A DNA stretch of 64,000 nt from Onthophagus taurus (taxonomy: Eukaryota > Arthropoda > Insecta > Coleoptera > Scarabaeidae). Under the pieces are notes generated by a model. It made no database searches. It saw only the letters and a list, made by a program, of their open reading frames with translations, and was not told the origin of the DNA. The stretch spans positions 1,371,501 through 1,435,500 of the forward strand of contig NC_091971.1 in NCBI RefSeq assembly GCF_036711975.1, read 5' to 3'. Positions 31,352 through 58,180 of the stretch are shown one piece after another (position 1 is the stretch's first letter; every line of letters begins with the position of its first letter). The position numbers and the translations under genes are program-made.

Positions 31352-34300
31352 TTAACCCTTTGTGTCCCAAGAAGTCAAAAATTTTGAAAGTTTGTGAAAA
31401 AAATATTGATATAAAACTTACATTTTCGTATATCCTAAAAGTGTTAAAAAAGATGCTACATTAAAAATTCCTGGAAGCCGTATTTATTGAAATTAAGGAA
31501 TGAGACTTATTCTAAATTAAAGCTCAAAGCTTTCTCTTTAAAATGATGTATAATAATTGTTGGGTTGGATTGGAAAAATATTGAGAAAAAAAATGTTGAA
31601 ATTAAACTTACATTTTGATATAACCTAAAAATGTCAAAAAAGATGCTAATTTAAAAATTCCTGGAAGTCGTATTTATTGAAATTAAGGAATGAGACTTAC
31701 TCTAAATTAAAGCTCAAAGCTTTCTCTTTAAAATGATGTATAATAATTGTTGGGTTGGATTGGAAAAATATTAAGAAAAGAAATGTTGAAATAAAACTTA
31801 CATTTTCGCATAACCTAAAAGTCTCAAAAAATATGCTAATTTAAAAATTCCTGGAAGTCGTATTTATTGCAATTAAGTAATGAGACTTGTTCTAAATTAA
31901 AGCTCAAAGCTTTCTCTTTAAAATGATGTATAATAATTGTTGGGTTGGATTGGAAAAATATTAAGAAAAGAAATGTTGAAATAAAACTTACATTTTCGCA
32001 TAACCTAAAAGTCTCAAAAAATATGCTAATTTAAAAATTCCTGGAAGTCGTATTTATTGCAATTAAGTAATGAGACTTGTTCTAAATTAAAGCTCAAAGC
32101 TTTCTCTTTAAAATGATATATAATAATTGTTGGGTTGGATTGGAAAAATATTGAGAAAAAAAATGTTGAAACAAAACTTACATTTTTGTACAACCTAAAA
32201 GTGTCAAAAAAAATGATAAATTAAAAATTCCTGGAAGCCGTATTTATTGAAATTAAGGAATGAGAGTTGTTCTAAATTAAAGTTCAAAGCTCTCTCTTTA
32301 AAATGATGTATAATACTTGTTGGGTTGGATTGGAAAAATATTGAGAAAAAAAATGTTGAAACAAAACTTACATTTTCGTATAAACTAAAAGTGTCAAAAA
32401 AGATGCTAATTTAAAAATTCCTGGAAGTCGTATTTATTGAAATTAAGGAATGAGACTTGTTCTAAATTAAAGCTCAAAGCTTTCTCTTTAAAATGATGTA
32501 TAATAATTGTTGGGTTGGATTGGAAAAATATTGAGAAAAAAAATGTTGAAACAAAACTTACATTTTCGTATAAACTAAAAGTGTCAAAAAAGATGCTAAT
32601 TTAAAAATTCCTAGAAGCCGTATTTATTGAAATTAAGGAATGACAGTTGTTCTAAATTAAAGTTCAAAGCTCTCTCTTTAAAATGATGTATAATACTTGT
32701 TGGGTTGGATTGGAAAAATATTGAGAAAAAAAATGTTGAAACAAAACTTACATTTTCGTATAAACTAAAAGTGTCAAAAAAGATGCTAATTTAAAAATTC
32801 CTGGAAGTCGTATTTATTGAAATTAAGTAATGAGACTTGTTCTAAATTAAAGCTCAAAGCTTTCTCTTTAAAATGATATATAATAATTGTTGGGTTGGAT
32901 TGGAAAAATATTGAGAAAAAAAATGTTGAAACAAAACTTACATTTTTGTACAACCTAAAAGTGTCAAAAAAAATGATAAATTAAAAATTCCTGGAAGCCG
33001 TATTTATTGAAATTAAGGAATGAGACTTACTCTAAATTAAAGCTCAAAGCTTTCTCTTTAAAATGATGTATAATAATTGTTGGGTTGGATTGGAAAAATA
33101 TTGAGAAAAAAAATGTTGAAACAAAACTTACATTTTCGTATAAACTAAAAGTGTCAAAAAAGATGCTAATTTAAAAATTCCTGGAAGTCGTATTTATTGC
33201 AATTAAGTAATGAGACTTGTTCTAAATTAAAGCTCAAAGCTTTCTCTTTAAAATGATATATAATAATTGTTGGGTTGGATTGGAAAAATATTGAGAAAAA
33301 AAATGTTGAAACAAAACTTACATTTTCGTATAAACTAAAAGTGTCAAAAAAGATGCTAATTTAAAAATTCCTGGAAGCCGTATTTATTGAAATTAAGGAA
33401 TGAGAGTTGTTCTAAATTAAAGCTCAAAGCTCTCTCTTTAAAATGATGTATAATACTTGTTGGGTTGGATTGGAAAAATATTGAGAAAAAAAATGTTGAA
33501 ACAAAACTTACATTTTCGTATAAACTAAAAGTGTCAAAAAAGATGCTAATTTAAAAATTCCTGGAAGCCGTATTTATTGAAATTAAGGAATGAGATTTGT
33601 TCTAAATTAAAGCTCAAAGCTTTCTCTTTAAAATGATGTATAATAATTGTTGGGTTGGATTGGAAAAATATTGAGAAAAAAAATGTTGAAACAAAACTTA
33701 CATTTTCGTATAAACTAAAAGTGTCAAAAAAGATGCTAATTTAAAAATTCCTGGAAGTCGTATTTATTGAAATTAAGGAATGAGACTTACTCTAAATTAA
33801 AGCTCAAAGCTTTCTCTTTAAAATGATGTATAATAATTGTTGGGTTGGATTGGAAAAATATTGAGAAAAAAAATGTTGAAACAAAACTTACGTTTTCGTA
33901 TAAACTAAAAGTGTCAAAAAAGATGCTAATTTAAAAATTCCTGGAAGCCGTATTTATTAAAATTAAGGAATGAGAGTTGTTCTAAATTAAAGTTCAAAGC
34001 TCTCTCTTTAAAATGATGTATAATACTTGTTGGGTTGGATTGGAAAAATATTGAGAAAAAAAATGTTGAAACAAAACTTACATTTTCGTATAAACTAAAA
34101 GTGTCAAAAAAGATGCTAATTTAAAAATTCCTGGAAGTCGTATTTATTGAAATTAAGGAATGAGACTTGTTCTAAATTAAAGCTCAAAGCTTTCTCTTTA
34201 AAATGATGTATAATAATTGTTGGGTTGGATTGGAAAAATATTGAGAAAAAAAATGTTGAAACAAAACTTACATTTTCGTATAAACTAAAAGTGTCAAAAA

Positions 34301-35345
34301 AGATGCTAATTTAAAAATTCCTGGAAGCCGTATTTATTGAAATTAAGGAATGAGAGTTGTTCTAAATTAAAGTTCAAAGCTTTCTCTTTAAAATGATGTA
34401 TAATAATTGTTGGGTTGGATTGGAAAAATATTGAGAAAAAAAATGTTGAAACAAAACTTACATTTTCGTATAAACTAAAAGTGTCAAAAAAGATGCTAAT
34501 TTAAAAATTCCTGGAAGCCGTATTTATTGAAATTAAGGAATGAGAGTTGTTCTAAATTAAAGTTCAAAGCTCTCTCTTTAAAATGATGTATAATACTTGT
34601 TGGGTTGGATTGGAAAAATATTGAGAAAAAAAATGTTGAAACAAAACTTACATTTTCGTATAAACTAAAAGTGTCAAAAAAGATGCTAATTTAAAAATTC
34701 CTGGAAGTCGTATTTATTGAAATTAAGGAATGAGACTTGTTCTAAATTAAAGCTCAAAGCTTTCTCTTTAAAATGATGTATAATAATTATTGGGTTCGAT
34801 TGGAAAAATATTGAGAAAAAAAAGGTTGAAACAAAACTTACATTTTCGTATAAACTAAAAGTGTCAAAAAAGATGCTAATTTAAAAATTCCTGGAAGTCG
34901 TATTTATTGAAATTAAGGAATGAGACTTGTTCTAAATTAAAGCTCAAAGCTTTCTCTTTAAAATGATGTATAATAATTGTTGGGTTGGATTGGAAAAATA
35001 TTGAGAAAAAAAATGTTGAAACAAAACTTACATTTTCGTATAAACTAAAAGTGTCAAAAAAGATGCTAATTTAAAAATTCCTGGAAGCCGTATTTATTGA
35101 AATTAAGGAATGAGAGTTGTTCTAAATTAAAGTTCAAAGCTCTCTCTTTAAAATGATGTATAATACTTGTTGGGTTGGATTGGAAAAATATTGAGAAAAA
35201 AAATGTTGAAACAAAACTTACATTTTCGTATAAACTTAGTAGAAAGTACCGATAGTTCTAAATGCGCCGAATAGATGACTACAGTTTAAAATGAGTGTTT
35301 AAAACTACCGGTACTTTAAAGTACCGCCGGGATATAAAGGGTTAA
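31352..35345 (+). mobile_element. Non-autonomous piggyBac-like element filled with 190-bp satellite
   Basis: The ends are TTAA CCCTTTGTGTCCC and GGGATATAAAGGG TTAA. They are inverted termini beginning CCC/GGG next to TTAA target duplications, as in piggyBac transposons. The subterminal regions differ: left AAGAAGTCAAAAATTTTG; right AGTAGAAAGTACCG ... GTACTTTAAAGTACCG. No transposase is encoded. Almost all of the interior is a tandem array. Two more members of the family lie at 51.2-54.1 and 56.5-58.2 kb. Confidence 0.88.
31430..35235 (+). repeat. 190-bp satellite array inside the piggyBac-like element, about 20 copies
   Basis: TTGGGTTGGATTGG recurs every 190 bases. Each monomer also carries AAAATTCCTGGAAG(C/T)CG and AAAGCT(T/C)TCTCTTTAAAATG. 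From about 32.2 kb two monomer types (GTCG + GAGACTTGT + GCTTT, and GCCG + GAGAGTTGT + GCTCT) mostly alternate, a 380-bp higher-order repeat. Copies are highly similar, so expansion or homogenisation is recent. Confidence 0.93.
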
Positions 35346-36390
35346 ACACGATTTTTATTTTTAAATAATTAATTTTATATATTATATTTTAGATAAATCT
35401 TTTTCATTCCACACCATTAAATATCATCAATTTGATTTAAAATTTAAATTATCAAAATAAAACAAACTTCACTTTGCTTTGTAAATAAAATCAATTTTTA
35501 TTTTGACGTTTAAAACGTCAAAGTGAATTTAACGTATGAAGAGGTTATTAATTTATTTAAATTAATTTCAACTTGAATACAAGATCTCATCTACTATTCT
35601 CAATTATGATTTAAACTGTGCCACATCTGGATATAAGCTAAAACTTTCACATTTCGCGATATTAACCATTCTCATTATGAATTACTAACTATTTAGAAAT
35701 CAGGGTGGAAACTCCCAAGTTATAATTTATAAAAATAAACGATGATCTTATTCGGAAAATTATTAAATAAAAAGAGGTAGTAATAAAAAATAGTTGAGAT
35801 GCATTTTAAATTATGTAATTTAAAAGTTGTTTTAGAATGAAAAAAACCTTGATCATCCCGACCTGGCATTGACACTAAAGTCTTAAAACGACTTAAGAGG
35901 TACACGGTGATGAAAAAAAAAATCACGTGTATTCATACAATCGAAGTGATGAAGTAACTGGTTTAGGTCACGTTCTTTTTTTTAACCATCATTCGATTGC
36001 TTCAGTTATTATTACAAGATTGATGAGCTGAAATGTAACACTCTTATTTTTTTTCTCTTTGTGGTTCAAAAGAAATGAAGAGTAAAGTGGTGAAATACCA
36101 ATTTAGATTAAGATCTAATATATGAAACAACTAGTGAATGCATTTAGAATGTTAATTAAGATTTCTAAAGGAATTTATGATTTGAAGATGAGTTTATGAA
36201 ACCTCAACAACACTATCATTGTCTTAGAAGTACTTAACTTAATAAAAAACATTATATAATTAAATTTCGTCTAACAATTAACAACAATAAAATTTTGAAG
36301 GTTAAATTGACAGATGTTAACCTTCAAACTTCAGATTGATTTATTTATTTTTATAAATGTTAATTTTATGTTAATGTTGATTGTTTTTAA
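35346..36390. other. AT-rich spacer
   Basis: No gene recognised. A short perfect palindrome GACGTTTAAAACGTC occurs near 35504, and related words recur in the tandem duplication that follows. Open frames here (for example 35720-35926) look incidental. Confidence 0.35.
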
Positions 36391-37108
36391 GGTATTGTAC
36401 AACTTTTTGTTTAATTGACTTAATTTTATTTTGTTTTAAATGAAATAAATTTAATTCGTTAAAATGATATGAGTTAACTTCACTTCATTTCTGAGTTCAT
36501 GTTGGTTACATTGAATTAAAATTTTAAATTAAATTATTATATAAAATGTATTTAATTTTTGTAAACCTTTAATTTCGTTTTATTTCATATAATTTTAACC
36601 AAATTTGTATCATTTTAAAATATTAAACATCCAAAGATAACTTTATATTAAACAAGTTATTTTGACGTTTAAAATGTCACCACAGTGAAAGACGATTTTC
36701 TTCAAATTATTAATTTTGATTATTCTAGTTTTAATACGTTATTTATAATTGGGATTGTACAAGTTTTTGTTTAATTGACTTTATTTTATTTCTTTATTTT
36801 GTTTTAAATGAAATAAATTTAATTCGTTAAAATGATTTGAGTTAACTTCACTTCATTTCTGAGTTCATGTTGGTTAAATTGAATTAAAATTTTAAATTAA
36901 ATTATTATATAAAATGTATTTAATTTTTGTAAACCTTTAATTTCGTTTTATTTCATATAATTTTAACCAAATTTGTATCATTTTAAACTATTAAACATAC
37001 AAAGATAACTTTATATTAAACAAGTTACTTTGACGTTTAAAATGTCACAGTGACAGAATTATTAATTTTGATTATTCTAGTTCTATTACGTTATAATTGG
37101 GATACGAC
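36391..37108. repeat. Two-copy 360-bp tandem duplication
   Basis: The copy starting at 36391 (GGTATTGTACAACTTTTTG) is repeated from 36751 (GGGATTGTACAAGTTTTTG) with few differences apart from small indels. Both contain GACGTTTAAAATGTCAC. Non-coding. Confidence 0.88.
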
Positions 37109-38325
37109 TAAAAACTTAAAGTGCAAGGTAAGTTAAGAAGAAAATTATTTCATTGTTAATCCCCCTTCAAAGGTAGACTTTAGAAAAAATTCCTAACGAA
37201 TCAAACATCTAATGATTTACTGTGAACTCGGTTTAACCAAAAAGTGTTTAATGTCCTTGCATTCTTTTCGCGATGTTCATCATCGTCCGGACGTCCGATT
37301 CAAAAAATAAACCTTTTTTATTCCATTCGAAGAGTACTTGGACAATGACATTAATTGAACAAAAAGGACGAACCATTTAACTTTGTCACAATGGTTTTTT
37401 TTAGACAATTTAATTCGAATCGATTAACTCCACTCCTTACCATCTGATTTGATGTGGACTTTATGTGTATGTAAAAAAAATTAATACTCTGTAGAAAGAA
37501 GAAAGTTGTAGGTGTCTTCGAAAGTTGCATTGTTTAGGAGGAAATTTCCTGATGATGTCTCAGAATTACAATGAAGAAAGGTGTAAAAATCTTTCCACAT
37601 TTTATTTTTTCTATTGTATTAGAAAAAGATCAACAAATAAAGATTAATCGTTTATTTATTAGTTTATTGTAAAAACTAATAAATTGCATTTCATATCTAA
37701 AGATTACTTAACAAATAATTATTGATTCACACATAATACGACGTCCTGTACTTTCTCTCGTTCACCTAAAGGCGCCTTGCAACATACACACACAGAAAAT
37801 TATTAATTGTTTGTTTCGTAATCTCTACCAGAAGAAGAACCATTTACAAATCTTTCAACATTCCTCGGGGGTACTTTAAAGGATTTATTGGGCCTCTAAC
37901 ACCAAATATATATAAAACAGTTTTAGTAAAATTCCTCTCTAAGGTAATCTTAAGATAATTTCTATGCTAATAAGAAATAATTATAGTCCTTTTTTGAGAA
38001 TGAGTGGGTTGTAGTTAAGTTTCCTTCAAGAAGGCTAAAACATAATTTTTGAAGTATTGTTTTAAAATGTACTTGACCTAAATAATTAATAATTTATTAT
38101 ACCTATTTTGCGATTTAGATTAAGCCTAAATAAGTTTCTATATTTCCATTTGATTTAATATTTTTGTATTAACCCGATAAAAGATAATTAACATAATCGT
38201 CTCCTCTTAACGACTTTTTACGACATTTGCGTAGTTCGTGCACGACGATAGCCTTTTACAAACGTAAAGAACATAATCACGTGTGTACCAAGTTATTTCA
38301 TCGGAGCCGAAATTACAACATCAAC
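37109..38325. other. AT-rich spacer
   Basis: No gene, RNA or element recognised. Slightly GC-richer patches at 37250-37310 and 38200-38290 may be regulatory, but nothing in them is diagnostic. Confidence 0.3.
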
Positions 38326-38327
38326 CG

Positions 38328-38695
38328 CAAGTTATAAAAATTTGAAAATTATTAGAAAACCACAAAACCAGTCTTCTTCAATATCCCTAACTTTGTCGCC
38401 TTCTCCTTCTTCGTTTTCAACATTATCGTTGCGAAAATACACATTTTGCAATACTTTATACGCGAAGAAACGCATTTTGTCATTAGTAATTAAAAAAAAA
38501 AGATAAGAAAAAAATAGTGAAAGTAAAAAATGGGAAAATAATCTTATTTTTTTTTGTGTTGTGTGAAGTTAAAGTTTATGTAATTTCTGGTTTCTTTCGA
38601 TCGAACAAAGAGAGATTAGTTTAAAATGTTGTCGATGGTGGGAAGATTTACGATGCTCTCATTTCCAAAAATGAAAGGAGATGAGCGAGAGCAAG
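38328..38695 (+). CDS. Candidate first exon of a plus-strand gene (partial)
   Basis: A TATAAAAA box near 38334, an initiator-like ACCAGTC about 35 bases on, a leader, then ATG at 38626 opening 23 codons (MLSMVGRFTMLSFPKMKGDE...). The frame meets a good splice donor, AAG/GTAATG, at 38695/38696. No partner exon is recognisable downstream on this strand in the window, so if real the gene has a very large intron or extends past the end. The peptide matches nothing I know. Only the combination of signals supports it. Confidence 0.3.
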
Positions 38696-38699
38696 GTAA

Positions 38700-39450: not shown

Positions 39451-39454
39451 TATT

Positions 39455-42010
39455 ACATTTCTCGCCGTTCAAAACACCAGAACTAGACGGTATTATACCT
39501 GCCCTTTTACTATGGGTCTTGGAGGATTTAATACCTCACCTAGTGGAAATCTTGCAGGCATGTCTGGCTATATACCCAGTCGATGGCGTGAGGTCACAGT
39601 GAACTTCATACCAAAACTGGGTAAGCTTGATTATTTCATACCGAAATCGTCACTTTAGACCAATCAGTATCATCTCCTCCTTTCTTTTGAAAACCCTGGA
39701 AAGACTGTGTGATCGCTACATTAGAGATTTCTGTCTCCCAACTAAACCAGTAAATCCTAATCAACACGCTTACACTCAGAGCAACTCAAGGTGACCAGCT
39801 TTGTTGATGGAGTCCGCCCTGAGTGTTTTCATAGATATAGAAGGAGCTTTTGATAAAACAACTTTCTCTGGTATTAACGATGCCTTGTTAGAGCATAATG
39901 TTCCACCGACTCTTTGTGGTTGGATTGAGAACACTCTTAAACATAGAGTGAAGCTTAGGGCTGGCGATGTTAGTCTCCATGGAGGAGTTACTCGAGGTTG
40001 TCCACAAGAGGGTATACTATCCTCATTTTTGTGGAATCTCACCTTGGATAGCCTCTTGAAACGCCTCACTGAAGCCAACTTTACTACAGTTGCTTACGCA
40101 GAAAATTTAACCATTCTAGTCAAAGACAAGTACATAAACGTGTTTTTTGATAAGATGCAAGTAGCTCTCAAATTGATAGAGTCTTGGTGTGACAAACAAA
40201 GACTCTCTGTGAATCTTAAGAAGACAGAGTTGAGTCTTTTCACACGAATGAGGAAGTTTGGCAAGCCCAGAATGTCATCCCTTGCTAATACTCCATTGTT
40301 TTGTCAAAAGAAGTCAAATATCTGGGCATCACACTTGACAATAAAATGACATGGGGAACTCACCTAGATACTAGAGTAAAAAAAGCGTACTGTAAGATAT
40401 AGGGTTTGTCACCCAAAAATGCCCTCTGGACTTATACGACTGTAATCCGACCTATGGTGTAGTAGTATGGTGGTCAAAGACCTTACAGTCTACATCCACT
40501 GCTGCACTTAATAAAGTACAGAGCACAGCAGCCATGGAAAACATGTTGAACCTTACACCACTTCATTTGTTCACTCAAGAGGTGACCACGATTCGACTGC
40601 GGATAGCAGGATTTCTAATGGATGAGAGAGATAGTAAAAATCCCATTCTCTGGAAGGAAATGGTGGATTACTCACCAATTCTGGAATGTAAAACGGACTT
40701 GTTAGAGCATAATGTTCCACCGACTCTTTGTGGTTGGATTGAGAACACTCTTAAACATAGAGTGAAGCTTAGGGCTGGCGATGTTAGTCTCCATCTAGGA
40801 GTTACTCGAGGCTGTCCACAAGAGGGTATACTATCCTCATTTTTGTGGAATCTCACCTTGGATAGCCTCTTGAAACGCCTCACTGAAGCCAACTTTACTA
40901 CAGTTGCTTACGCAGAAAATTTAACCATTCTAGTCAAAGACAAGTACATAAACGTGTTTTTTAATAGGATGCAAGTAGCTCTCAAATTGATAGAGTCTTG
41001 GTGTGACGAACAAAGACTCTCTGTGAATCCTAAGAAGACAGAGTTGATTCTTTTCACACGAATGAGGAAGTTTGGCAAGCCCAGTATGCCATCCCTTCCT
41101 AATACTCCATTGTTTTGTCAAAGGAAGTCAAATATCTGGGCATCACACTTGACAATAAAATGACATGGGGAGCTCACCTAGATAATAGAGTAAAAAAGAG
41201 GGCCCTCTGGACTTATACGGCTATAATCCGACCTATGCTTACTTATGGTGCAGTAGTATGGTGGTCAAAGACCTTGCAGTCTACATCCACTGCTGCACTT
41301 AATAAAGTATAGAGCACTGCAGCCATGGAAAACATGTTGAACCTTACGCCACTTCATTTGTTCATTCAAGAGGTGGCACTGGTGACCATGATTCGACTGC
41401 GGGCAGAGGGATTTCTAATGGGTGGGAGAGATAGTAAAAATGCCATTATCTGGAAGGAAATAGTGTATTACTCACCAATTCTGGAATGTAAAACGGACTT
41501 CACACCCCTACAACACATTTTTACGAAGAAATATCTCACCCACCCAAGTTCCACAGAAGTAGAGGTAAAAAACAGCTTTAAAATCTACACTGATGGTTCA
41601 AGTAGACGGAAAAGAGCTGAAGCCGGAGTCTTTTCGTACGATCTTCGACTCCACGTATCTGAACTCTAGGTAAAAGTACTACCGTCCTACAGGCGGAGTT
41701 AATCGCCATACAACTTGACGTTATTGTCAGGTCCAACTTGAAAGGTAAGACTTTCACAATTTACACTGACAGTAGACAAGCTATTTTAGCCCTGAGTATG
41801 AATAACAATTACCTCAGGACTTGTTATGGGTTGTCATCTGACATTGGAAAAGGTCGCAGTGCATAACTGTGTTATACTTCAATGGACAAAAGGACACTCG
41901 ACTTGTTCAGCCTGAACCGATAATCGTTCCGTCTTTATCAACTCAGATTGAGATAATTAAAGATTTTACCCACACAAAGTTTATGAACTGGTGGGACAGG
42001 GTAAGGGCTT
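39455..42010 (+). mobile_element. Defective RNase H-bearing non-LTR retrotransposon, left part
   Basis: Broken frames encode a reverse transcriptase: PELDGIIPALL, RPISIISSFLLKTLERL, VFIDIEGAFDK (motif A), and TRGCPQEGILSSFLWNL. Then comes an RNase H domain with IYTDGSS, and later TIYTDSRQAI. This order is typical of I/R1/LOA-type elements. The motif that should be an F/Y-A-D-D box reads YAEN in both RT copies, so the catalytic aspartates are lost. Stops and frameshifts abound, the RT middle is duplicated, and the ORF is broken near 42010 by a satellite array. Its 3' end resumes at about 47441. Confidence 0.85.
39884..41507 (+). repeat. 814-bp internal direct duplication within the retrotransposon
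   Basis: CTTGTTAGAGCATAATG at 39884 recurs at 40698. Downstream, the two copies run in parallel through the RT palm, thumb and a connection segment, ending near ACCAATTCTGGAATG (40676 and 41477). Copies differ by substitutions and a few indels. Both have the YAEN change, so it arose before the duplication. Confidence 0.88.
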
Positions 42011-45000
42011 TTTAACTTTTATCTCAATATTTTTATAACCAAAAATGATTAAGTTTATATGCGGTCTTGAAGAGGAAGGTTTCAGCTTCAATTTGAAGTA
42101 TAAATCGTTTCATAACTCCTAAAAATAAGGAGAATACGATTTTTTGAAAATCCTGAATTTTTATTCGTATTAGAATAAGTTAAAAATTGTGGCTTCACCT
42201 TTTAACTTTTATCTCAAGATTTTTATAATCAAAAGTATTTAAGTTTATACACAGTCTTATAAAGGAAGGCTTCGGCTTCATTTTAATGTATAAATCGTTT
42301 CATAATTCCTAAAAATAAGGTCAAGACGATTTTTTGAAAATCCTGAATTTTCATTCCTTTTAGGTTTAGTTAAAAATTGTTACTTCACTTATTAATTTTT
42401 ATCTCGACATTTTTATAATTAAAAGCAATTAAGTTTGACCACGGTCTTGAAGAGAAAGATTTCAGCTTCAATTTGAAATATAAATCGTTCTATAACTCCT
42501 AAAAATAAGGACGATACGATTTTTTGAAAATCGTGAATTTTTATTCGTTTTAGGTTAAGTTATAAATTGTTACTGCACATTTTAACTTTTATCTCAAGAT
42601 TTTCATAACCAAAAACTATTAAGTTTATATACGGTATTGAAGAGGAAGGTTTCAGCTTCAATTTGAAGTATAAATCGTTTCATAACTCCTAAAAATAAGG
42701 AGAATACGATTTTTTGAAAATCCTGAATTTTTATTCGTTTTAGGATAAGTTAAAAATTGTGACTTCACCTTTTAACTTTTGTCTCAAGATTTTTATAATC
42801 AAAGGTATTTAAGTTTATACACAGTCTTATAAAAGAAGGCTTCGGCTTCATTTTAATGTATAAATCGTTTCATAATTCCTAAAAATAAGGTCAAGACGAT
42901 TTTTTGAAAATCCTGAATTTTCATTCCTTTTAGGTTTAGTTAAAAATTGTTACTTCACTTATTAATTTTTATCTCAACATTTTTATAATTAAAAACAATT
43001 AAGTTTGACCACGGTCTTGAAGAGAAAGATTTCAGCTTCAATTTGAAATATAAATCGTTGTATAACTCCTAAAAATAAGGACGATACGATTTTTTGAAAA
43101 TCGTGAACTTTTATTCGTTTTAGGTTAAGTTATAAATTGTTACTGCACATTTTAACTTTTATCTCAAGATTTTCATAACCAAAAACTATTAAGTTTATAT
43201 ACGGTCTTGAAGAGGAAGGTTTCAGCTTCAATTTTAAGTATAAATTATTTCATAACTCCTAAAAATAAGGAGAATACGATTTTTTGAAAATCCTGAATTT
43301 TTATTCGTTTTAGAATAAGTTAAAAATTGTGACTTCACCTTTTAACTTTTATCTCAAGATTTTTATAATCAAAAGTATTTAAGTTTATACACAGTCTTAT
43401 AAAGGAAGGCTTCGGCTTCAATTTGAAGTATAAATCGTTTCATAACTCCTAAAAATAAGGAGAATACGATTTTTTGAAAATCCTGAATTTTTATTCGTTT
43501 TAGGATAAGTTAAAAATTGTGACTTCACCTTTTAACTTTTATCTCAAGATTTTTATAATCAAAAGTATTTAAGTTTATACACAGTCTTATAAAGGAAGGC
43601 TTCGGCTTCATTTTAATGTATAAATCGTTTCATAATTCCTAAAAATAAGGTCAAGACGATTTTTTGAAAATCCTGAATTTTCATTCCTTTTAGGTTTAGT
43701 TAAAAATTGTTACTTCACTTATTAATTTTTATCTCAACATTTTTATAATTAAAAGCAATTAAGTTTGACCACGGTCTTGAAGAGAAAGATTTCAGCTTCA
43801 ATTTGAAATATAAATCGTTCTATAACTCCTAAAAATAAGGACGATACGATTTTTTGAAAATCGTGAATTTTTATTCGTTTTAGGTTAAGTTATAAATTGT
43901 TACTGCACATTTTAACTTTTATCTCAAGATTTTCATAACCAAAAACTATTAAGTTTATATACGGTCTTGAAGAGGATGGTTTCAGCTTCAATTTGAAGTA
44001 TAAATCGTTTCATAACTCCTAAAAATAAGGAGAATACGATTTTTTGAAAATCCTGAATTTTTATTCGTTTTAGGATAAGTTAAAAATTGTGACTTCACCT
44101 TTTAACTTTTATCTCAAGATTTTTATAATCAAAAGTATTTAAGTTTATACACTGTCTTATAAAGGAAGCCTTCAGCTTCATTTTAATGTATATATCGTTT
44201 CATAATTCCTAAAAATAAGATCAAGACGATTTTTTGAAAATCCTGAATTTTCATTCCTTTTAGGTTTAGTTAAAAATTGTTACTTCACTTATGAATTTTT
44301 ATCTCAACATTTTTATAATTAAAAGCAATTAAGTTTGACCACGGTCTTGAAGAGAAAGATTTCAGCTTCAATTTAAAATATAAATCGTTCTATAACTCCT
44401 AAAAATAAGGACGATACGATTTTTTGAAAATCGTGAATTTTTATTCGTTTTAGGTTAAGTTATAAATTGTTACCGCACATTTTAACTTTTATCTCAAGAT
44501 TTTCATAACCAAAAACTATTAAGTTTATATACGGTCTTGAAGAGGAAGGTTTTAGCTTCAATTTGAAGTATAAATCGTTTCATAACTCCTAAAAATAAGG
44601 AGAATACGATTTTTTGAAAATCCTGAATTTTTATTCGTTTTAGGATAAGTTAAAAATTGTGACTTCACCTTTTAACTGTTATCTCAAGATTTTTATAATC
44701 AAAAGTATTTAAGTTTATACACAGTCTTATAAAGGAAGGCTTCGGCTTCATTTTAATGTATAAATCGTTTCATAATTCCTAAAAATAAGGTCAAGACGAT
44801 TTTTTGAAAATCCTGAATTTTCATTCCTTTTAGGTTTAGTTAAAAATTGTTACTTCACTTATTAATTTTTATCTCAAAATTTTTATAATTAAAAACAATT
44901 AAGTTTGACCACGGTCTTGAAGAGAAAGATTTCAGCTTCAATTTGATATATAAATCGTTCTATAACTCCTAAAAATAAGGACGATACGATTTTTTGAAAA

Positions 45001-47440
45001 TCGTGAATTTTTATTCGTTTTAGGTTAAGTTATAAATTGTTACTGCACATTTTAACTTTTATCTCAAGATTTTCATAACCAAAAACTATTAAGTTTATAT
45101 ACGGTCTTGAAGAGGAAGGTTTCAGCTTCAATTTGAAGTATAAATCGTTTCATAACTCCTAAAAATAAGGAGAATACGATTTTTTGAAAATCCTGAATTT
45201 TTATTCGTATTAGAATAAGTTAAAAATTGTGACTTCACCTTTTAACTTTTATCTCAAGATTTTTATAATCAAAAGTATTTAAGTTTATACAGAGTCTTAT
45301 AAAGGAAGGCTTCGGCTTCATTTTAATGTATAAATCGTTTCATAATTCCTAAAAATAAGGTCAAGACGATTTTTTGAAAATCCTGAATTTTCATTCCTTT
45401 TTTGTTTAGTTAAAAATTGTTACTTCACTTATTAATTTTTATCTCAACATTTTTATAATTAAAAGCAATTAAGTTTGACCACGGTCTTGAAGAGAAAGAT
45501 TTCAGCTTCAATTTGAAATATAAATCGTTCTATAACTCCTAAAAATAAGGACGATACGATTTTTTGAAAATCGTGAATTTTTATTCGTTTTAGGTTAAGT
45601 TATAAATTGTTACTGCACATTTTAACTTTTATCTCAAGATTTTCATAACCAAAAACTATTAAGTTTATATACGGTCTTGAAGAGGAAGGTTTCAGCTTCA
45701 TTTTAATGTATATATCGTTTCATAATTCCTAAAAATAAGATCAAGGCGATTTTTTGAAAATCCTGAATTTTCATTCCTTTTAGGTTTAGTTAAAAATTGT
45801 TACTTCACTTATTAATTTTTATCTCAACATTTTTATAATTAAAAGCAATTAAGTTTGACCACGGTCTTGAAGAGAAAGATTTCAGCTTCAATTTGAAATA
45901 TAAATCGTTCTATAACTCTTAAAAATAAGGACGATACGATTTTTTGAAAATCGTGAATTTTTATTCGTTTTAGGATAAGTTATAAATTGTTACCGCACAT
46001 TTTAACTTTTATCTCAAGATTTTCATAACCAAAAACTATTAAGTTTATATACGGTCTTGAAGAGGAAGGTTTCAGCTTCAATTTGAAGTATAAATCGTTT
46101 CATAACTCCTAAAAATAAGGAGAATACGATTTTTTGAAAATCCTGAATTTTTATTCGTATTAGAATAAGTTAAAAATTGTGACTTCACCTTTTAACTTTT
46201 ATCTCAAGATTTTTATAATCAAAAGTATTTAAGTTTATACACAGTCTTATAAAGGAAGGCTTCGGCTTCATTTTAATGTATAAATCGTTTCATAATTCCT
46301 AAAAATAAGGTCAAGACGATTTTTTGAAAATCCTGAATTTTCATTCCTTTTAGGTTTAGTTAAAAATTGTTACTTCACTTATTAATTTTTATCTCAACAT
46401 TTTTATAATTAAAAGCAATTAAGTTTGACCACGGTCTTGAAGAGAAAGATTTCAGCTTCAATTTGAAATATAAATCGTTCTATAACTCTTAAAAATAAGG
46501 ACGATACGATTTTTTGAAAATCGTGAATTTTTATTCGTTTTAGGATAAGTTATAAATTGTTACCGCACATTTTAACTTTTATCTCAAGATTTTCATAACC
46601 AAAAACTATTAAGTTTATATACGGTCTTGAAGAGGAAGGTTTCAGCTTCAATTTGAAGTATAAATCGTTTCATAACTCCTAAAAATAAGGAGAATACGAT
46701 TTTTTGAAAATCCTGAATTTTTATTCGTATTAGAATAAGTTAAAAATTGTGACTTCACCTTTTAACTTTTATCTCAAGATTTTTATAATCAAAAGTATTT
46801 AAGTTTATACACAGTCTTATAAAGGAAGGCTTCGGCTTCATTTTAATGTATAAATCGTTTCATAATTCCTAAAAATAAGGTCAAGACGATTTTTTGAAAA
46901 TCCTGAATTTTCATTCCTTTTAGGTTTAGTTAAAAATTGTTACTTCACTTATTAATTTTTATCTCAACATTTTTATAATTAAAAGCAATTAAGTTTGACC
47001 ACGGTCTTGAAGAGAAAGATTTCAGCTTCAATTTGAAATATAAATCGTTCTATAACTCCTAAAAATAAGGACGATACGATTTTTTGAAAATCGTGAATTT
47101 TTATTCGTTTTAGGTTAAGTTATAAATTGTTACTGCACATTTTAACTTTTATCTCAAGATTTTCATAACCAAAAACTATTAAGTTTATATACGGTCTTGA
47201 AGAGGAAGGTTTCAGCTTCAATTTGAAGTATAAATCGTTTCATAACTCCTAAAAATAAGGAGAATACGATTTTTTGAAAATCCTGAATTTTTATTCGTTT
47301 TAGAATAAGTTAAAAATTGTGACTTCACTTTTTAACTATTATCTCAAGATTTTTATAATGAAAAGTATTAAAGTTTATACACGGTCATGAAGAGCAAGAT
47401 TTCAGCTTCAATTTGAAGTATAAATCGTTTCATAACTCCT
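42005..47440 (+). repeat. 190-bp satellite with 570-bp higher-order repeat, about 28 monomers
   Basis: CGATTTTTTGAAAATC recurs every 190 bases. Three monomer types rotate: AGAATACGAT, TCAAGACGAT and ACGATACGAT before that word, giving a 570-bp unit. The order is disturbed at a few points (for example about 43.4 and 45.7 kb), as if by unequal exchange. The array interrupts a retrotransposon. It shares period and several aligned blocks with the satellite inside the piggyBac-like elements when read on the opposite strand. Confidence 0.93.
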
Positions 47441-47804
47441 AAAAATATCTGCCTAAAGAAGTATTACGTTTTCCCTCAGCAGAGGCAGCCTTGTCTTTCG
47501 TAAGGCTTGATAGAAACACTCTACGAACTGTAACGGGACTCTGTGGCTTTTATGAAGAGACCGAGGAGACGGTTCCACACATCTTGTGTGACTGCCCTAC
47601 TCTGCAAGACCTCAGAATAAGAGACTTCGGAGAGGAATGGCCATCAGGAACACACCTCTGAGCTGTATCCTAGCCTTCGGAAATTCCTTAGGCTGGTAAT
47701 GTAGCAGGAGAGAGTGCAGGAGGATGTACAAGGGGCCCGTTGGGGCTTAGGTGCTGTATGCTGAAGCATACCCTCCCCTTTCCTACATACATACATACAT
47801 ACAA
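47441..47804 (+). mobile_element. Retrotransposon 3' end with TACA tail
   Basis: After the satellite, the frame resumes with LDRNTLRTVTGLCGFYEET and a CCHC-like ETVPHILCDCPTLQDLR block. This is the C-terminus usual for RNase H-bearing non-LTR elements. It is followed by a short 3' UTR and a TACATACATACATACATACA tail. It belongs with the left part at 39.5-42.0 kb. The minus-strand open stretch at 47644 is a shadow. Confidence 0.85.
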
Positions 47805-50695: not shown

Positions 50696-50704
50696 ACGAC
50701 CACA

Positions 50705-51202
50705 CTAGAAAAAAAAATAAAGATATATTAAAAAAATGTTAGACCTAGGTTTGAATTTTGCATTTGATTTTTTCCAGATTTATGAATTTTTTGAATTTAA
50801 CTTTGCATAGATAAATTTCCCAAGCTGTATAATGAGTTCATTGTTGACTTCAATTTTGGTTGTATCCAGTTTTATCTCGTAGTAAAATTGTAATTCACGC
50901 TGTGTAAATATTTAAAATGAGCTTGGTTTATTAATGAATTTCATTTAACTGAAAATTAGAGTAAAATAAAAAAGTTTTGAAATAAATAATTAATAATACA
51001 GCAATAAAATTTCAAATAAATATTATTTACAATCATAAATTTTAACCAATATAAACCTCAAGTTGTAAAATTCTGTAATAAATACCTAGATAGCAAAAAT
51101 CTAAATTAGTAAACAGTCAATAACTCATTTTTGATACTCCAATTTGATTTTTTTAATTAATTCTAATTATATCTCAAGATTAAACTAACCAAACACTACT
51201 AA
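50705..51202. other. Start of FAM13 first intron
   Basis: AT-rich intron sequence with a pyrimidine tract and TAG acceptor directly before exon 2 (50706-50705). No other feature. Confidence 0.45.
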
Positions 51203-54076
51203 TTAACCCTTTGTGTCCCAAGAAGTCAAACATTTTGAAACTTTGTGACAGAATCAGACAGAATTAAAACGCTATCAAAATACACTCAGTAAAGGCCTTT
51301 GGAATAAAATTTTAGCAAAATATGCAATCCCCTAAAAAGATGCTAATTCAAAAATTCCTGGAAACCGTGTTTATTGAATTTAAGAAATAAAACTTATTTT
51401 AAATTGAAGCTTGAAGCTTTCTGTTTAAATCGATGTCTAACAATCGATGGGTTGAATTAAAAAAATATTGAGAAAAAGAGTATTGAGTTAAAACTAACAT
51501 TTTCGTATAACCTAAAAGTGTCAAAAAAGATGCTAATTTAAAAATTCCTGGAAGCCGTATTTATTGAAATTAAGGAATGAGAGTTGTTCTAAATTAAAGT
51601 TCAAAGCTCTCTCTTTAAAATGATGTATAATAATTGTTGGGTTGGATTGGAAAAATATTGAGAAAAAAAATGTTGAAACAAAACTTACATTTTTGTACAA
51701 CCTAAAAGTGTCAAAAAAAATGATAAATTAAAAATTCCTGGAAGCCGTATTTATTGAAATTAAGGAATGAGACTTACTCTAAATTAAAGCTCAAAGCTTT
51801 CTCTTTAAAATGATGTAAAATAATTGTTGGGTTGGATTGGAAAAATATTGAGAAAAAAAATGTTGAAACAAAACTTACATTTTCGTATAAACTAAAAGTG
51901 TCAAAAAAGATGCTAATTTAAAAATTCCTGGAAGCCGTATTTATTGAAATTAAGGAATGAGAGTTGTTCTAAATTAAAGTTCAAAGCTCTCTCTTTAAAA
52001 TGATATATAATAATTGTTGGGTTGGATTGGAAAAATATTGAGAAAAAAAATGTTGAAACAAAACTTACATTTTTGTACAACCTAAAAGTGTCAAAAAAAA
52101 TGATAAATTAAAAATTCCTGGAAGCCGTATTTATTGAAATTAAGGAATGAGACTTACTCTAAATTAAAGCTCAAAGCTTTCTCTTTAAAATGATGTAAAA
52201 TAATTGTTGGGTTGGATTGGAAAAATATTGAGAAAAAAAATGTTGAAACAAAACTTACATTTTCGTATAAACTAAAAGTGTCAAAAAAGATGCTAATTTA
52301 AAAATTCCTGGAAGCCGTATTTATTGAAATTAAGGAATGAGAGTTGTTCTAAATTAAAGTTCAAAACTCTCTCTTTAAAATGATATATAATAATTGTTGG
52401 GTTGGATTGGAAAAATATTGAGAAAAAAAATGTTGAAACAAAACTTACATTTTTGTACAACCTAAAAGTGTCAAAAAAAATGATAAATTAAAAATTCCTG
52501 GAAGCCGTATTTATTGAAATTAAGGAATGAGACTTACTCTAAATTAAAGCTCAAAGCTTTCTCTTTAAAATGATGTATAATAATTGTTGGGTTGGATTGG
52601 AAAAATATTGACAAAAAACATGTTGAAACAAAACTTACATTTTCGTATAACCTAAGAGTGCCAAAAAAGATGCTAATTTAAAAACTCCTGGAAGCCGTAT
52701 TTATTGAAATTAAGGAATGAAACTTATTTTAAATTAACGCTCAAAGCTTTCTCTTTAAAATGATGTATAATAATTGTTGGGTTGGATTGGAAAAATATAG
52801 AGAAAAAAAAAGTTGAAATAAAACTTACATTTTCGAATAACCTAAAAATGTAAAAAATATGCTAATTTAAAAATTCCTGTAAGCCGTATTTATTGAAATT
52901 AAGGAATGAAACTTATTTTAAATTAACGCTCAAAGCTTTCTCTTTAAAATGATGTATAATAATTGTTGGGTTGGATTGGAAAAATATTGACAAAAAACAT
53001 GTTGAAACAAAACTTACATTTTCGTATAACCTAAGAGTGCCAAAAAAGATGCTAATTTAAAAACTCCTGGAAGCCGTATTTATTGAAATTAAGGAATGAA
53101 ACTTATTTTAAATTAAAGCTCAAAGCTTTCTCTTTAAAATGATGTATAATAATTGTTGGGTTGGATTGGAAAAATATTGAGAAAAAAAAAGTTGAAATAA
53201 AACTTACATTTTCGAATAACCTAAAAATGTAAAAAATATGCTAATTTAAAAATTCCTGTAAGCCGTATTTATTGAAATTAAGGAATGAAACTTATTTTAA
53301 ATTAAAGCTCAAAGCTTTCTCTTTAAAATGATGTATAATAATTGTTGGGTTGGATTGGAAAAATATAGAGAAAAAAAAAGTTGAAAGAAAACTTACATTT
53401 TCGTATAACCTAAGAGTGTCAAAAAAGATGCTAATTTAAAAATTCTTGGAAGCCGTATTTATTGAAATTAAAGAATAAGACTTATTCTAAATTAAAGCTC
53501 AAAGCTTTCTTTTTAAAATGATGTATAATAATTGTTGGGTTGGATTGGAAAAATATTGACAAAAAACATGTTGAAACAAAACTTACATTTTTGTATAACC
53601 TAAGAGTGCCAAAAAAGATGCTAATTTAAAAACTCCTGGAAGCCGTATTTATTGAAATTAAGGAATGAAACTTATTTTAAATTAAAGCTCAAAGCTTTCT
53701 CTTTAAAATGATGTATAATAATTGTTGGGTTGGATTGGAAAAATATAGAGAAAAAAAAAGTTGAAATAAAACTTACATTTTCGAATAACCTAAAAATGTA
53801 AAAAATATGCTAATTTAAAAATTCCTGTAAGCCGTATTTATTGAAATTAAGGAATGAAACTTATTTTAAATTAAAGCTCAAAGCTTTCTCTTTAAAATGA
53901 TGTATAATAATTGTTGGGTTGGATTTGAAAAATATTAAGAAAAAAAATGTTGAAACAACTACTTGTATAGTAGAAAGTACCGACAGCTCTAAATGCGCCG
54001 AATAGATAACTACAATTTAAAATGAGTGTTTAAAATTACCGGTACTTTAAAGTACCGTCGGGACACAAAGGGTTAA
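51203..54076 (+). mobile_element. Second satellite-filled piggyBac-like element
   Basis: TTAA + CCCTTTGTGTCCC on the left, and GGGACACAAAGGG + TTAA on the right. Subterminal sequences are those of the 31-kb element. The interior is about 14 copies of the same 190-bp monomer. The first copies are diverged (51.25-51.5 kb) and the central ones nearly uniform, with short deletions in variants that lack the GTC of AGTGTC. It lies in the FAM13 first intron. Confidence 0.9.
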
Positions 54077-55640
54077 AAATATAAAACTTAAAAAATCTTT
54101 TAATCCCATTAAACTTAAATACCTCATCATTTTTGTCTTTATCCAAAACAATCTTCAATAACTTCAACTTCATCTCAAGAAAATTCTGTTTACACCGCAC
54201 ACTTTAAACTCCAAGCAACTTCTAACAACTTTACGAGTATTTAAGCACCTTAATATACCTTTAAAGTCCAGACGTAATTCGTTATCTCAAATCATATTCA
54301 CAACGATATTAAACGCTCCAATAAATTATTTTACAGCGTTTTATTATAAATAAGAATTTTTGGGCTCAAACCAAAATAAAAACTTTATTTATAACTCAGT
54401 TTACTACCACAAAACTTCTTTTATATAAAGAAAATGTTAAAAATAAAAACACCGGGTGGATTTAATTTAATGGAGGTTTTGAAAATAACAAATTACCGAA
54501 GTTAACTGGTTAAATCCAGTGAGATAACCGCATTGAAATCGCGGAACAATGAGTTCACCTTTGAGATGCGTTTTTCTGACAATGTCTAACGACTTTTATA
54601 GTATTTTTTTGTCTCGAAGAAACCTTTAAACAACACTTCCTAATTTAAAAACGTTTATTGCGGGTTCTTTCGCCAAATTAGTTTTCTTTTTTTTTATTGG
54701 CCTCTTTTTATTAACGTTAATTACTTACTGATTAGAGTCTGTTAGATAAAGTCTCATAATTCATTACTTTCGTGTTTAATGGTTATTGAATTATGCGATT
54801 AAAAAGATTTAATGAGGCGTAAAATTGTCTATATTTAGGATCTTATTAAAAAAAATAATTGAAAAGATAACACTTACATTATTTCTCTATATTTTTTCCT
54901 TTAATTAATTGAAAAAGTCAAAATAACGCGTACTTCTTTAATTTTACAACAACATTGTGTTTTTGTGGTTATGATACGATTACAAGAACCGCAAGTTCAT
55001 GAATATTGTAAATACGGCACGATCGTTTAGAACTCTAAAAATAACTCGGGCAACGAGGAAATTGTTGATGGAGCATTCCTTTTCAAATCGAAAACTTTAA
55101 TTTATTATTGTTCTGCACGTAAAATTGAAAAACATTTTGTTCACCTTCACAAACTTTAAAAATTTTAATCACAAGTGTTTTTCGTTTAAATAAGAATGAA
55201 ATTATACATTAAATTTTGTAATGCGACGAAAAATAAGCCAATTTATTACCAATCTGTGTTTGTTTGCTTAGCGATATTATTTATCAATGTTTAAATAGTC
55301 GGTTTATGTTTCGATGAGTTCTTGCGTAAACATAAATAATCTGACGCGAAGGAAAAAAAATTATAAAAGTTAAATTAATTAATTTGAGTCAAGTTTTGAT
55401 TGATATAAAATATTATGTACTTTGTACTTTGTATTATTGTTAATTAATCAATATAATTATTATTGTAAAAACTAAATTTACTGATTTAGATTTAGATGCT
55501 ATTCATAAATTTAGTTGTTACCATTTATTATCCCATTTGCAGTATTCAAAAGAAATGATAAGATGGCTCATAACATCCATTTCTTTTATTATACAGTGAA
55601 TTTGACTTAAAATGTAATATACAAAAATATATACCTTATA
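54077..55640. other. FAM13 intron, unique AT-rich sequence
   Basis: No gene or repeat recognised in this stretch between two inverted piggyBac-like elements. Confidence 0.4.
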
Positions 55641-55649
55641 TGTTCCACA

Positions 55650-55915
55650 TAAAATGTTTGAATGTTTCTAGTTCTAATATTAATTCTAATAACAGTGGTA
55701 GTTAGCATAGGATAACACTATGTTGAATATTTTTATTGCACTAAAACTAGAAGTGTCACTGGAATGATTCTGGTTTAGCCGTCTTGAGAGTTGAATGTTA
55801 GTTTTAGTTTTAATTGTTATTAAACGTTAGATTGTGGTATATTTTTATTGAACGAAAAGTAGAACTAACACTAGACCTAGAACAAGAAACATTCGGGTTT
55901 AGCCGAAAACTCAGG
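55650..55915. repeat. Degenerate fold-back palindrome copy
   Basis: It contains AACAGTGGTAGTTAGCATAG, GGTTTAGCCGTCTTGAGAG and, at its right, AACTAACACTAGACCTAGAAC leading into ATTCGGGTTTAGCC, where it is cut by the following element. The flank words match those bordering the 10-12.7 kb array. Confidence 0.65.
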
Positions 55916-55929
55916 ACATAATAAGGACG

Positions 55930-56445
55930 TCACTTTTCTTCAAGCAAAACTTTTCTTTTGCATAATGAGCCTAATGAGCGATCTACAAGAAAATCAAGAA
56001 GTTAAAATCTACAGATATTCTAGCAGAAAAACAGAGACGTTTGTTTGTACAGATCCCAGTACCACCAAGAAGTTATGGATTACCTAAAATCCATAAACCA
56101 GATATTGTCAGTGGCTTAAATTCTCCAACGTACCAGTTTGCGAAGCTCCTGGACAAGGTTCTCTCTCCTTTTACTACTTCTAAAAGGTCTTATTAAAACA
56201 AAGTCTTATGCCAGAGATTTTTACGCATTTTGTGGAAACAATCAAAAGTATAGTATAAGTTAGATCTCATTCCACATGGTTTATTGAAGGAGTTTTGGAG
56301 CACTGTTTATCATCGACATATTTTAACTGGAAGAGAGAATTCAACAAGCAATACGATGAGGCAGCCATGAGATCATCTTTGTCTGACTCATGATTTTCGT
56401 TACGTGAATGCATCTTTGCGATCTAGCAACATTTCCAGAAGATGA
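55930..56445 (+). mobile_element. Penelope-like reverse transcriptase fragment
   Basis: Broken plus-strand frames read PPRSYGLPKIHKPDIV and LNSPTYQFAKLLDKVLSPF. These are the conserved YGLPKIHK and SPTY.LAK blocks in the fingers of Penelope-type reverse transcriptases. The rest has stops and frameshifts. It may be a remnant of the family found at 20-21.5 kb, which preserves a different part of the protein. Confidence 0.7.
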
Positions 56446-56462
56446 TATCCTGATTATACTGA

Positions 56463-58180
56463 TTAACCCTTTGTGTCCCGACAGTACTTTAAACACTCAT
56501 TTTAAACTGTAGTTATCTATTCGGCGCATTTAGAGCTGTCGGTACTTTCTACTATACAAGTAGTTGTTTCAACATTTTTTTTCTTAATATTTTTCAAATC
56601 CAACCCAACAATTATTATACATCATTTTAAAGAGAAAGCTTTGAGCTTTAATTTAAAATAAGTTTCATTCCTTAATTTTAATAAATACGGCTTACAGGAA
56701 TTTTTAAATTAGCATATTTTTAACATTTTTAGGTTATTCGAAAATGTAAGTTTTATTTCAACTTTTTTTTTCTCTATATTTTTCCAATCCAACCCAACAA
56801 TTATTATACATCATTTTAAAGAGAAAGCTTTGAGCTTTAATTTAAAATAAGTTTCATTCCTTAATTTCAATAAATACGGCTTCCAGGAGTTTTTAAATTA
56901 GCATCTTTTTTGGCACTCTTAGGTTATACGAAAATGTAAGTTTTGTTTCAACATGTTTTTTGTCAATATTTTTCCAATCCAACCCAACAATTATTATACA
57001 TCATTTTAAAAAGAAAGCTTTGAGCTTTAATTTAGAATAAGTCTTATTCTTTAATTTCAATAAATACGGCTTCCAGGAATTTTTAAATTAGCATATTTTT
57101 AACATTTTTAGGTTATTCGAAAATGTAAGTTTTATTTCAACTTTTTTTTTCTCTATATTTTTCCAATCCAACCCAACAATTATTATACATCATTTTAAAG
57201 AGAAAGCTTTGAGCTTTAATTTAAAATAAGTTTCATTCCTTAATTTCAATAAATACGGCTTCCAGGAGTTTTTAAATTAGCATCTTTTTTGGCACTCTTA
57301 GGTTATACGAAAATGTAAGTTTTGTTTCAACATGTTTTTTGTCAATATTTTTCCAATCCAACCCAACAATTATTATACATCATTTTAAAAAGAAAGCTTT
57401 GAGCTTTAATTTAGAATAAGTCTTATTCTTTAATTTCAATAAATACGGCTTCCAGGAATTTTTAAATTAGCATCTTTTTTGGCACTCTTAGGTTATACGA
57501 AAATGTAAGTTTTGTTTCAACATGTTTTTTGTCAATATTTTTCCAATCCAACCCAACAATTATTATACATCATTTTAAAGAGAAAGCTTTGAGCGTTAAT
57601 TTAAAATAAGTTTCATTCCTTAATTTCAATAAATACGGCTTCCAGGAGTTTTTAAATTAGCATCTTTTTTGGCACTCTTAGGTTATACGAAAATGTAAGT
57701 TTTGTTTCAACATGTTTTTTGTCAATATTTTTCCAATCCAACCCAACAATTATTATACATCATTTTAAAAAGAAAGCTTTGAGCTTTAATTTAGAATAAG
57801 TCTTATTCTTTAATTTCAATAAATACGGCTTCCAGGAATTTTTAAATTAACATCTTTTTTGACACTTTTAGGTTATACGAAAATGTTAGTTTTAACTCAA
57901 TACTCTTTTTCTCAATATTTTTTTAATTCAACCCATCGATTGTTATACATCGATTTAAACAGAAAGCTTCAAGCTTCAATTTAAAATAAGTTTTATTTCT
58001 TAATTTCAATAAACACGGTTTCCAGGAATTTTTGAATTAGCATCTTTTTAGGGGATTGCATATTTTGCTAAAATTTTATTCCAAAGGCCTTTACTGAGTG
58101 TATTTTGATACCGTTTTAATTCTGTCTGATTCTGTCACAAAGTTTCAAAATGTTTGACTTCTTGGGACACAAAGGGTTAA
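56463..58180 (-). mobile_element. Third satellite-filled piggyBac-like element, inverted
   Basis: TTAA + CCCTTTGTGTCCCG on the left and GGGACACAAAGGG + TTAA on the right. The asymmetric subterminal regions show it runs opposite to the other two. It holds about 8 copies of the 190-bp monomer. The junction of the last monomer with the GTACTTTCTACTATACAAG terminus is the same as in the 51-54 kb copy, so these two are closest relatives. Confidence 0.9.

Follow-up and report, generated by a model that had tools for sequence, protein, structure and literature searches.

The window analysed here is a stretch of 64,000 nucleotides from the scarab beetle Onthophagus taurus (NCBI RefSeq assembly GCF_036711975.1, contig NC_091971.1, positions 1,371,501 to 1,435,500 of the forward strand). 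It holds three elements that are bounded by TTAA and filled with tandem copies of a 190-bp monomer. A first-pass annotation, made from the letters of the window, had proposed that they belong to a piggyBac-like transposon family that carries and expands a satellite. All comparisons were made within one genome of 290.8 Mb, in which contigs are numbered with C (the window lies on C6) and loci with L. We conclude that the elements are, very probably, non-autonomous piggyBac transposons with a captured satellite array, which is moved whole with the element and resized in place.

Three array-bearing elements

The elements and their arrays, as delimited with Tandem Repeats Finder, are the following.

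31352..35345, forward strand: element 1, TTAA and left end, array, right end and TTAA; 3994 bp, about 20 monomers
31397..35236, forward strand: array of element 1, 190 bp, 20.2 copies
51203..54076, forward strand: element 2, TTAA-flanked; 2874 bp, about 14 monomers
51334..53958, forward strand: array of element 2, 190 bp, 13.8 copies
56463..58180, reverse strand: element 3, TTAA-flanked, inverted relative to elements 1 and 2; 1718 bp, about 8 monomers
56564..58049, reverse strand: array of element 3, 190 bp, 7.8 copies

The three elements lie where the first-pass annotation had placed them, and TTAA adjoins all six of their ends. The exact sequence CCCTTTGTGTCCC was found at five ends, at 31356 (+), 51207 (+), 54060 (-), 56467 (+) and 58164 (-). 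The sixth, the right end of element 1 (35329), is CCCTTTATATCCC and has two mismatches to it, so that calling the terminal repeats the same was slightly overstated. The asymmetry reported for the subterminal sequences was confirmed, since left and right were consistently unlike each other, and the single 190-bp monomer in about 20, 14 and 8 copies was recovered as well. Outside the arrays, 235 bases of elements 2 and 3 were aligned, with 3 differences. A fragment that by eye resembles a Penelope-like reverse transcriptase lies at about 56040-56170, immediately before element 3 on its upstream side.

Transposons of the piggyBac superfamily have short terminal inverted repeats starting with CCC and asymmetric subterminal regions. 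The present elements carry CCCTTTGTGTCCC at both ends together with asymmetric subterminal regions and a TTAA target site. Their same-ended relatives encode a DDE_Tnp_1_7 transposase, degraded in every case, and for one copy, L053, a clean paralogous empty site with a single TTAA was identified (described below).

The family in the genome and its transposase-bearing relatives

The first-pass annotation had recommended searching the genome for the terminal repeats, and this search proved productive. The 13-bp end CCCTTTGTGTCCC occurred 539 times exactly (260 + 279) and its reversed control once (0 + 1). A 17-mer consisting of TTAA and the end occurred 516 times (270 + 246), with 0 + 0 in the control; TTAA thus adjoins 516 of the 539 exact ends. 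Chance likeness of the ends was ruled out by the control counts of 0-1. An 18-bp word of the monomer was found at 3430 places, against none in the control. It is exact in 182 of 308 counted monomers, which gives by rough extrapolation about 5800 monomers, or 1.1 Mb, genome-wide.

The first 100 of the 539 end places yielded 56 loci on C1, of which 40 were fetched for a census; the remaining 16, at 40.79-44.17 Mb, stood outside it, one being taken in later as L050. Other contigs were sampled through the window, L049, L051-L054, L056 and L057. Both ends were recognised within 3 mismatches of TTAA plus end in 32 of the 40 loci. Together with the window elements this made 35 two-ended elements, and TTAA stood on both sides in all except L016, a count to be read with the fact that the search pattern itself included TTAA. 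The monomer was present in 34 of the 40 loci and missing in L016, L023, L031, L034, L040 and L041. The 29 array-bearing two-ended C1 elements measure 1092 to 3950 bp and hold 2-18 countable monomers (median 7). At these lengths they are not miniature inverted-repeat transposable elements (MITEs) in the strict sense, which are noncoding, present in high copy number and a few hundred bp long, and they are better called non-autonomous piggyBac elements. The in-element arrays that were examined span about 2 to about 25 regular 190-bp monomers, and no long blocks of the element monomer were seen in the sample.

The insertion sites had been described as euchromatic, which the distribution on C1 does not support: the loci are concentrated at both ends of the contig, and its terminal 5 Mb (0-5 Mb and 39.2-44.2 Mb) together hold 34 of the 56, against 12.7 expected (binomial p ~1e-9). 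Searches for element-1-type arrays, for the piggyBac domain, for transposase relatives and for free-array relatives scored the best candidates only. The first of these found a cluster at C6:1081000-1435500, which includes the window, with arrays near 1.08, 1.13, 1.15, 1.16, 1.40 and 1.42 Mb. This cluster of about 350 kb possibly reflects local hopping.

A protein search found a piggyBac transposase match in five of the six monomer-free C1 loci (L023, L031, L034, L040 and L041) and also in L050. All six of these matches are degraded, and L031 and L034 have a single recognised end each. Pieces of L023 match Pfam PF13843 (DDE_Tnp_1_7) at 8e-10 and 5e-25. The remaining monomer-free locus, L016, retains the transposase region as fragments only; a Tc1/mariner-like transposase gene (PF13358) is nested in it at 1967-2826. 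The first-pass annotation had held that elements with the same ends and no array would weaken its proposal. Such loci do exist, 6 among 40, but they do not contradict it, because five of them carry transposase remnants and so fit an ancestral form.

Intermediates between the two kinds of copy were also found. In L010, about 2-3 monomers accompany some 900 bp of remaining transposase sequence, and in L059 about 25 monomers are fused to transposase sequence with the same right junction as in L010. This shared junction indicated that the array entered a transposase-bearing ancestor. A transposase stretch left of the array, by eye the 3' part of the gene, is kept in 10 two-ended C1 elements. Its breakpoint is identical in eight of them (L010, L020, L022, L024, L026, L030, L035 and L036), a variant of the common sequence in L043, and different in L021. 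Judging from the junctions of L010, L059 and others, a transposase-encoding ancestor would have gained a short 190-bp satellite array inside the 3' part of its transposase gene, and internal deletions would then have taken out the gene entirely or for the most part, with the array left between the two ends. The simplest history would be one array entry followed by internal deletions; direct support for a single entry is limited to copies in which the junction is preserved.

Among the 32 two-ended C1 copies, every copy without transposase coding carries monomers, except L016. That the array aids the spread of the element, with nucleosome-length 190-bp repeats serving as spacer, chromatin or transposase-access DNA and in-place expansion tuning the effect, seems improbable to us; the presence of monomers in all but one of these copies is also explained by descent from one founder.

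As to the source of transposase, the best candidates in the genome included at least 116 that matched the piggyBac transposase domain strongly, many of them with intact frames. The listed relatives with at least 70% amino acid identity either contain stops or have no open frame longer than 296 aa. The nearest intact transposase among the matches listed is that of L049 (C11), with 577 aa; the alignment covers 184 of the 190 residues of the query, at 56% identity. This protein was matched to PF13843 (3e-93), to the solved piggyBat transposase (6e-41) and to structure entry 6x67 (4e-21), named 'Transposase', which we take to be the piggyBac transposase. The ends of the L049 element are TTAACCCTTTGTATACC and TTAACCCTTTGTCTACC, and the element contains a GGTACTTTAAAGTAC motif that resembles the one in the right end of the family. 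The L049 gene runs toward the motif-bearing end, while the L023 gene starts near that end; by eye, a second, imperfect motif copy is present on the other side of L023. L049 would therefore be a sister lineage, and a candidate mobiliser only. An autonomous piggyBac relative with the same ends had been suggested as something to look for: the transposase-bearing relatives do have the same ends and are degraded, and the intact L049 has similar ones.

Other piggyBac families were also noted among the best candidates on several contigs (for example C1:32568962, C2:16783941 and C7:15239626). They include 8 matches of identical score with 576-aa open frames and 4 of identical score with 602-aa frames, and these families may have been recently active.

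Movement between sites and change within arrays

When the 600-bp flanks of the 35 two-ended elements were compared, they were unrelated except for dispersed-repeat matches of at most 194 bp, with one pair, L037/L038, as the sole exception. Close relationship at unrelated sites was clearest in the subfamily of element 1, formed by window element 1 (C6), L051 (C8), L052 (C6) and L053 (C2). Their non-array ends show 0-6 differences per 243-252 bases in all six pairs, and their flanks have no similarity between copies. In the same order, they hold 20, 17, 14 and 13 monomers and measure 3994, 3423, 3031 and 2655 bp, and the large internal gaps between them are near multiples of 190. A whole-array alignment of these copies, with 4-6% difference, was discarded for dating, since it mixes non-corresponding monomers.

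The joined flanks of 39 junctions were compared with the loci sampled, and a spanning match was obtained for seven. That of L053 was clean and fell within the window:

8502..8773, no strand assigned: paralogous empty site for L053 (C2), 272 bp spanning the junction at 89.7% identity, with one TTAA at 8620-8623

The matches for L013, L014, L035, L040 and L045 fall within repeats and carry less weight, and that for L043 was not counted as an empty site because it is the locus's own flank. The joined flanks of element 2 gave no empty site among the loci sampled, in a search that was not genome-wide.

The anatomy of the elements, their flanks and the clean paralogous empty site argue for cut-and-paste of the whole unit. 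A transposase made elsewhere would excise it at its ends and insert it at TTAA with the array carried whole. Transposition of the entire unit with its array, as claimed in the first-pass annotation, was thus borne out by unrelated flanks, near-identical ends on different contigs and the L053 empty site. The alternative that a satellite block spread by segmental duplication or ectopic recombination, with the TTAA ends incidental, does describe one case. L037 and L038 lie 44 kb apart on C1, their flanks are 99.8% identical over 600 + 600 bp, and the pair arose by segmental duplication. As a general route we consider it extremely improbable and rejected it: the other flank pairs share only the dispersed-repeat matches, no similarity exists among the flanks of the element-1 subfamily on C2, C6 and C8, 516 of the 539 ends adjoin TTAA, and L053 has an empty paralogue with one TTAA.

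The duplicated pair was informative about array length. Between L037 and L038 there are 3 substitutions in 2439 aligned bases, one 1-bp gap and one 380-bp gap, which indicated that two monomers were gained or lost in place. After landing, whole monomers would be gained or lost by unequal exchange or replication slippage; the change itself was seen in this one pair. The variation in array length between insertions that the first-pass annotation had described is real (20, 14 and 8 copies), but it need not come from transposition. We also considered whether length is altered mainly when the element moves, for instance through repair of the gap left at the donor site, and not while the element is resident. 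Near-identical element-1 copies at different sites do have arrays of unequal length. Nevertheless, this explanation appears quite unlikely, since the two-monomer difference of L037/L038 followed duplication without transposition. Moreover, piggyBac excision is held to reseal TTAA without DNA synthesis, which leaves little gap to repair.

Comparison of 284 monomers from 36 arrays, in which steps outside 170-205 bp were dropped and L054 lacked a complete left end in the stretch examined, gave a difference of 5.5% within an element and 8.2% between elements. In several long arrays the nearest monomer was usually in the same element: L011 (16/16), L021 (6/6), L022 (8/8), L043 (7/8), L009 (14/17) and L024 (9/11). 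Such own monomer types are as expected if arrays expand in place, and in-place gain and loss would give the private higher-order repeats of several long arrays. In six short arrays, chosen by hand, nearest neighbours fell at the same position in 54 of 120 cases, against a permuted mean of 27.6 and maximum of 49 (500 permutations); L014, L030, L032, L035, L039, L045 and L048 are also short and were excluded. This partly common order is what a founder array would be expected to leave.

Some expanded copies would have jumped again, as the common expanded monomer types of the element-1 subfamily at unrelated sites on C2, C6 and C8 suggest. Re-transposition of expanded copies would give these types, and so would conversion between them. 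If gene conversion generally exchanged arrays, likeness between copies would not come from recent transposition. The array of element 2 is a mixture of monomers like those of element 1 and of element 3, and some types recur in several arrays, as such exchange would predict. Against this, the non-array ends show the same close relationships, both in the element-1 subfamily and between elements 2 and 3, and several long arrays keep private monomer types; we therefore regard conversion as an unlikely account of the likeness.

The monomer and the free-standing satellite

The window also contains a 190-bp array outside the three elements. The inventory in the first-pass annotation was correct for the three element arrays and missed this fourth one.

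42008..47447, reverse strand (homologous strand): free 190-bp array, 28.6 copies (Tandem Repeats Finder), about 64% identical to the element monomer

Its consensus and the element monomer are identical in 126 of 196 aligned columns, with a score of 161; 40 shuffles gave a mean of 92 and a maximum of 105. No end of the transposon family was found within 2 mismatches at 42008-47447. By eye, the array interrupts a retroelement-like RNase H region. Among the best candidates, close relatives of the free array lie on C3, at 29.88 Mb and, in both orientations, at 5.99-6.04 Mb; those on C1, C6, C7, C11 and C15 are more distant. Family ends were absent, within 4 mismatches, from the free arrays L055 (C1), L056 (C3) and L057 (C15), and a search for inverted repeats around L055, L056 and the window array gave nothing diagnostic.

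The similarity of about 64% to a free-standing 190-bp satellite favours capture, and suggests that the element monomer may have been taken from an older free satellite family, with the direction not proved. In the opposite direction, sequence of the transposon itself would have been duplicated in tandem to form the monomer, and the free satellite would have escaped from the element. Free and element monomers are related and both are 190 bp long, and escape of arrays after loss of the transposon ends is a published model (PMC12628747, in the part cited here). Origin of the monomer from transposase sequence was nevertheless rejected: its best match in five transposase-bearing relatives is 17 bp, with no real similarity. 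The first 100 of the 3430 places of the monomer word, all on C1 at 0.19-10.14 Mb, formed 21 arrays, of which 17 stood beside exact ends and four (L058-L061) beside decayed or truncated ends or transposase, so that every one was attached to element sequence. Any escape would be old, as the compared free array is only about 64% identical. We judge this origin possible and somewhat unlikely, and prefer capture. With none of the 21 arrays free of the element, the claim that the element seeds satellite DNA at new sites is not demonstrated in this sample for an independent satellite of the element monomer.

Several observations weigh against the history of capture, whole-unit movement and in-place resizing. 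No intact transposase of the same family occurred among the 153 matches listed (the best 150 of 968 candidates). More than one array entry is possible, since the left transposase stretch is missing in 19 of the 29 array-bearing two-ended elements on C1. The search for TTAA-flanked empty sites that had been recommended produced the clean paralogous case of L053 and, genome-wide, none for window elements 1 and 3; their junctions matched only their own halves and, for element 3, a dispersed repeat in its right flank. Part of the near-identity of the element-1 ends could come from gene conversion. The direction of capture is unproved, and escape from the element is compatible with the data. Finally, private monomer types are far from general. 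A nearest monomer within the same element was rare in window element 1 (2/19) and L053 (1/12) and absent in L054 (0/12) and L026 (0/7). In window element 1, L053, L054 and the L037/L038 pair the nearest monomer usually belonged to a different element, and monomer types are shared among L018, L044 and elements 2 and 3.

Transposons that carry satellite repeats have been published before, in other superfamilies and also in Pokey, a piggyBac element of Daphnia with few repeats. Pokey is the closest known system by superfamily. According to the sections cited here (PMC3849761), it is a piggyBac-type element at TTAA with 2-5 repeats of about 200 bp, variable in number, which derive from the ribosomal DNA spacer and not from the transposon; deletion-derived MITEs (mPok) exist as well. 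The repeats lie upstream of the transposase gene in Pokey, whereas in L010 and L059 they lie inside it, and mPok MITEs are described there without repeats, whereas here the non-autonomous copies carry them, with up to about 20 monomers between complete ends.

Likenesses to other systems are also given here as far as the cited sections describe them. The Tc1/mariner MITE miDNA4 of Xenopus tropicalis (Scalvenzi and Pollet 2014, cited through PMC12628747 and PMC9659126) is a non-autonomous cut-and-paste element with a satellite as one monomer or a variable array, for which capture of a pre-existing repeat and later expansion were proposed. It belongs to another superfamily, and in their cited sections the two reviews mention neither intermediates with transposase and array nor a duplicate pair changed in place. 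In the beetle Tribolium castaneum, TCAST satellite occurs in dispersed elements with terminal inverted repeats, some with target-site duplications. These differ in having a near-complete and a partial inverted monomer within inverted repeats of about 269 bp, and in a mariner-like similarity; no long internal array is described in the portion cited (PMC3411249). Tetris, a foldback element of Drosophila virilis, has internal tandem repeats of about 220 bp that also occur in longer satellite-like arrays, but they lie within the inverted repeats of a foldback-like element, and the cited portion states no relation to TTAA or piggyBac (PMC4079207). CMITE elements of Acropora corals are piggyBac-related MITEs associated with tandem arrays; there the MITE itself is arrayed, whereas here the array is internal to the element (PMC2872659). 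In the Cg_HINE Helentrons of Crassostrea gigas, dispersed satellite-like arrays form the centre of a non-autonomous element, and some of these arrays are related to classical satellites (PMC7492417).

Helentrons are of the rolling-circle type, without terminal inverted repeats or TTAA, and differ in this from the present elements. Our literature search, which covered titles and the starts of abstracts with few subscription journals, returned no description of long satellite arrays inside non-autonomous piggyBac elements.

This family bears on an old question, the dispersal of short satellite arrays along chromosomes: it would spread short satellite-like DNA around chromosomes in blocks that can grow or shrink after landing. 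One genome holds what are likely to be successive stages, from array-free transposase relatives through intermediates with transposase and array to array-bearing deletion derivatives with partly common monomer order in their short arrays, and then privately expanded arrays, near-identical expanded copies at unrelated sites and a duplicate pair that differs by two monomers. With 539 exact ends, rates of array change with and without transposition would be measurable given population data.

Two further tandem arrays were identified in the window with Tandem Repeats Finder, at 10407-12660 (units of about 121/242 bp) and 61450-64000 (about 131/393 bp). Both contain a partly palindromic TAGTTCTAG...GCCGTC repeat, and relatives of this repeat elsewhere host insertions of the present transposon family near the palindrome centre, at L035 and L040.

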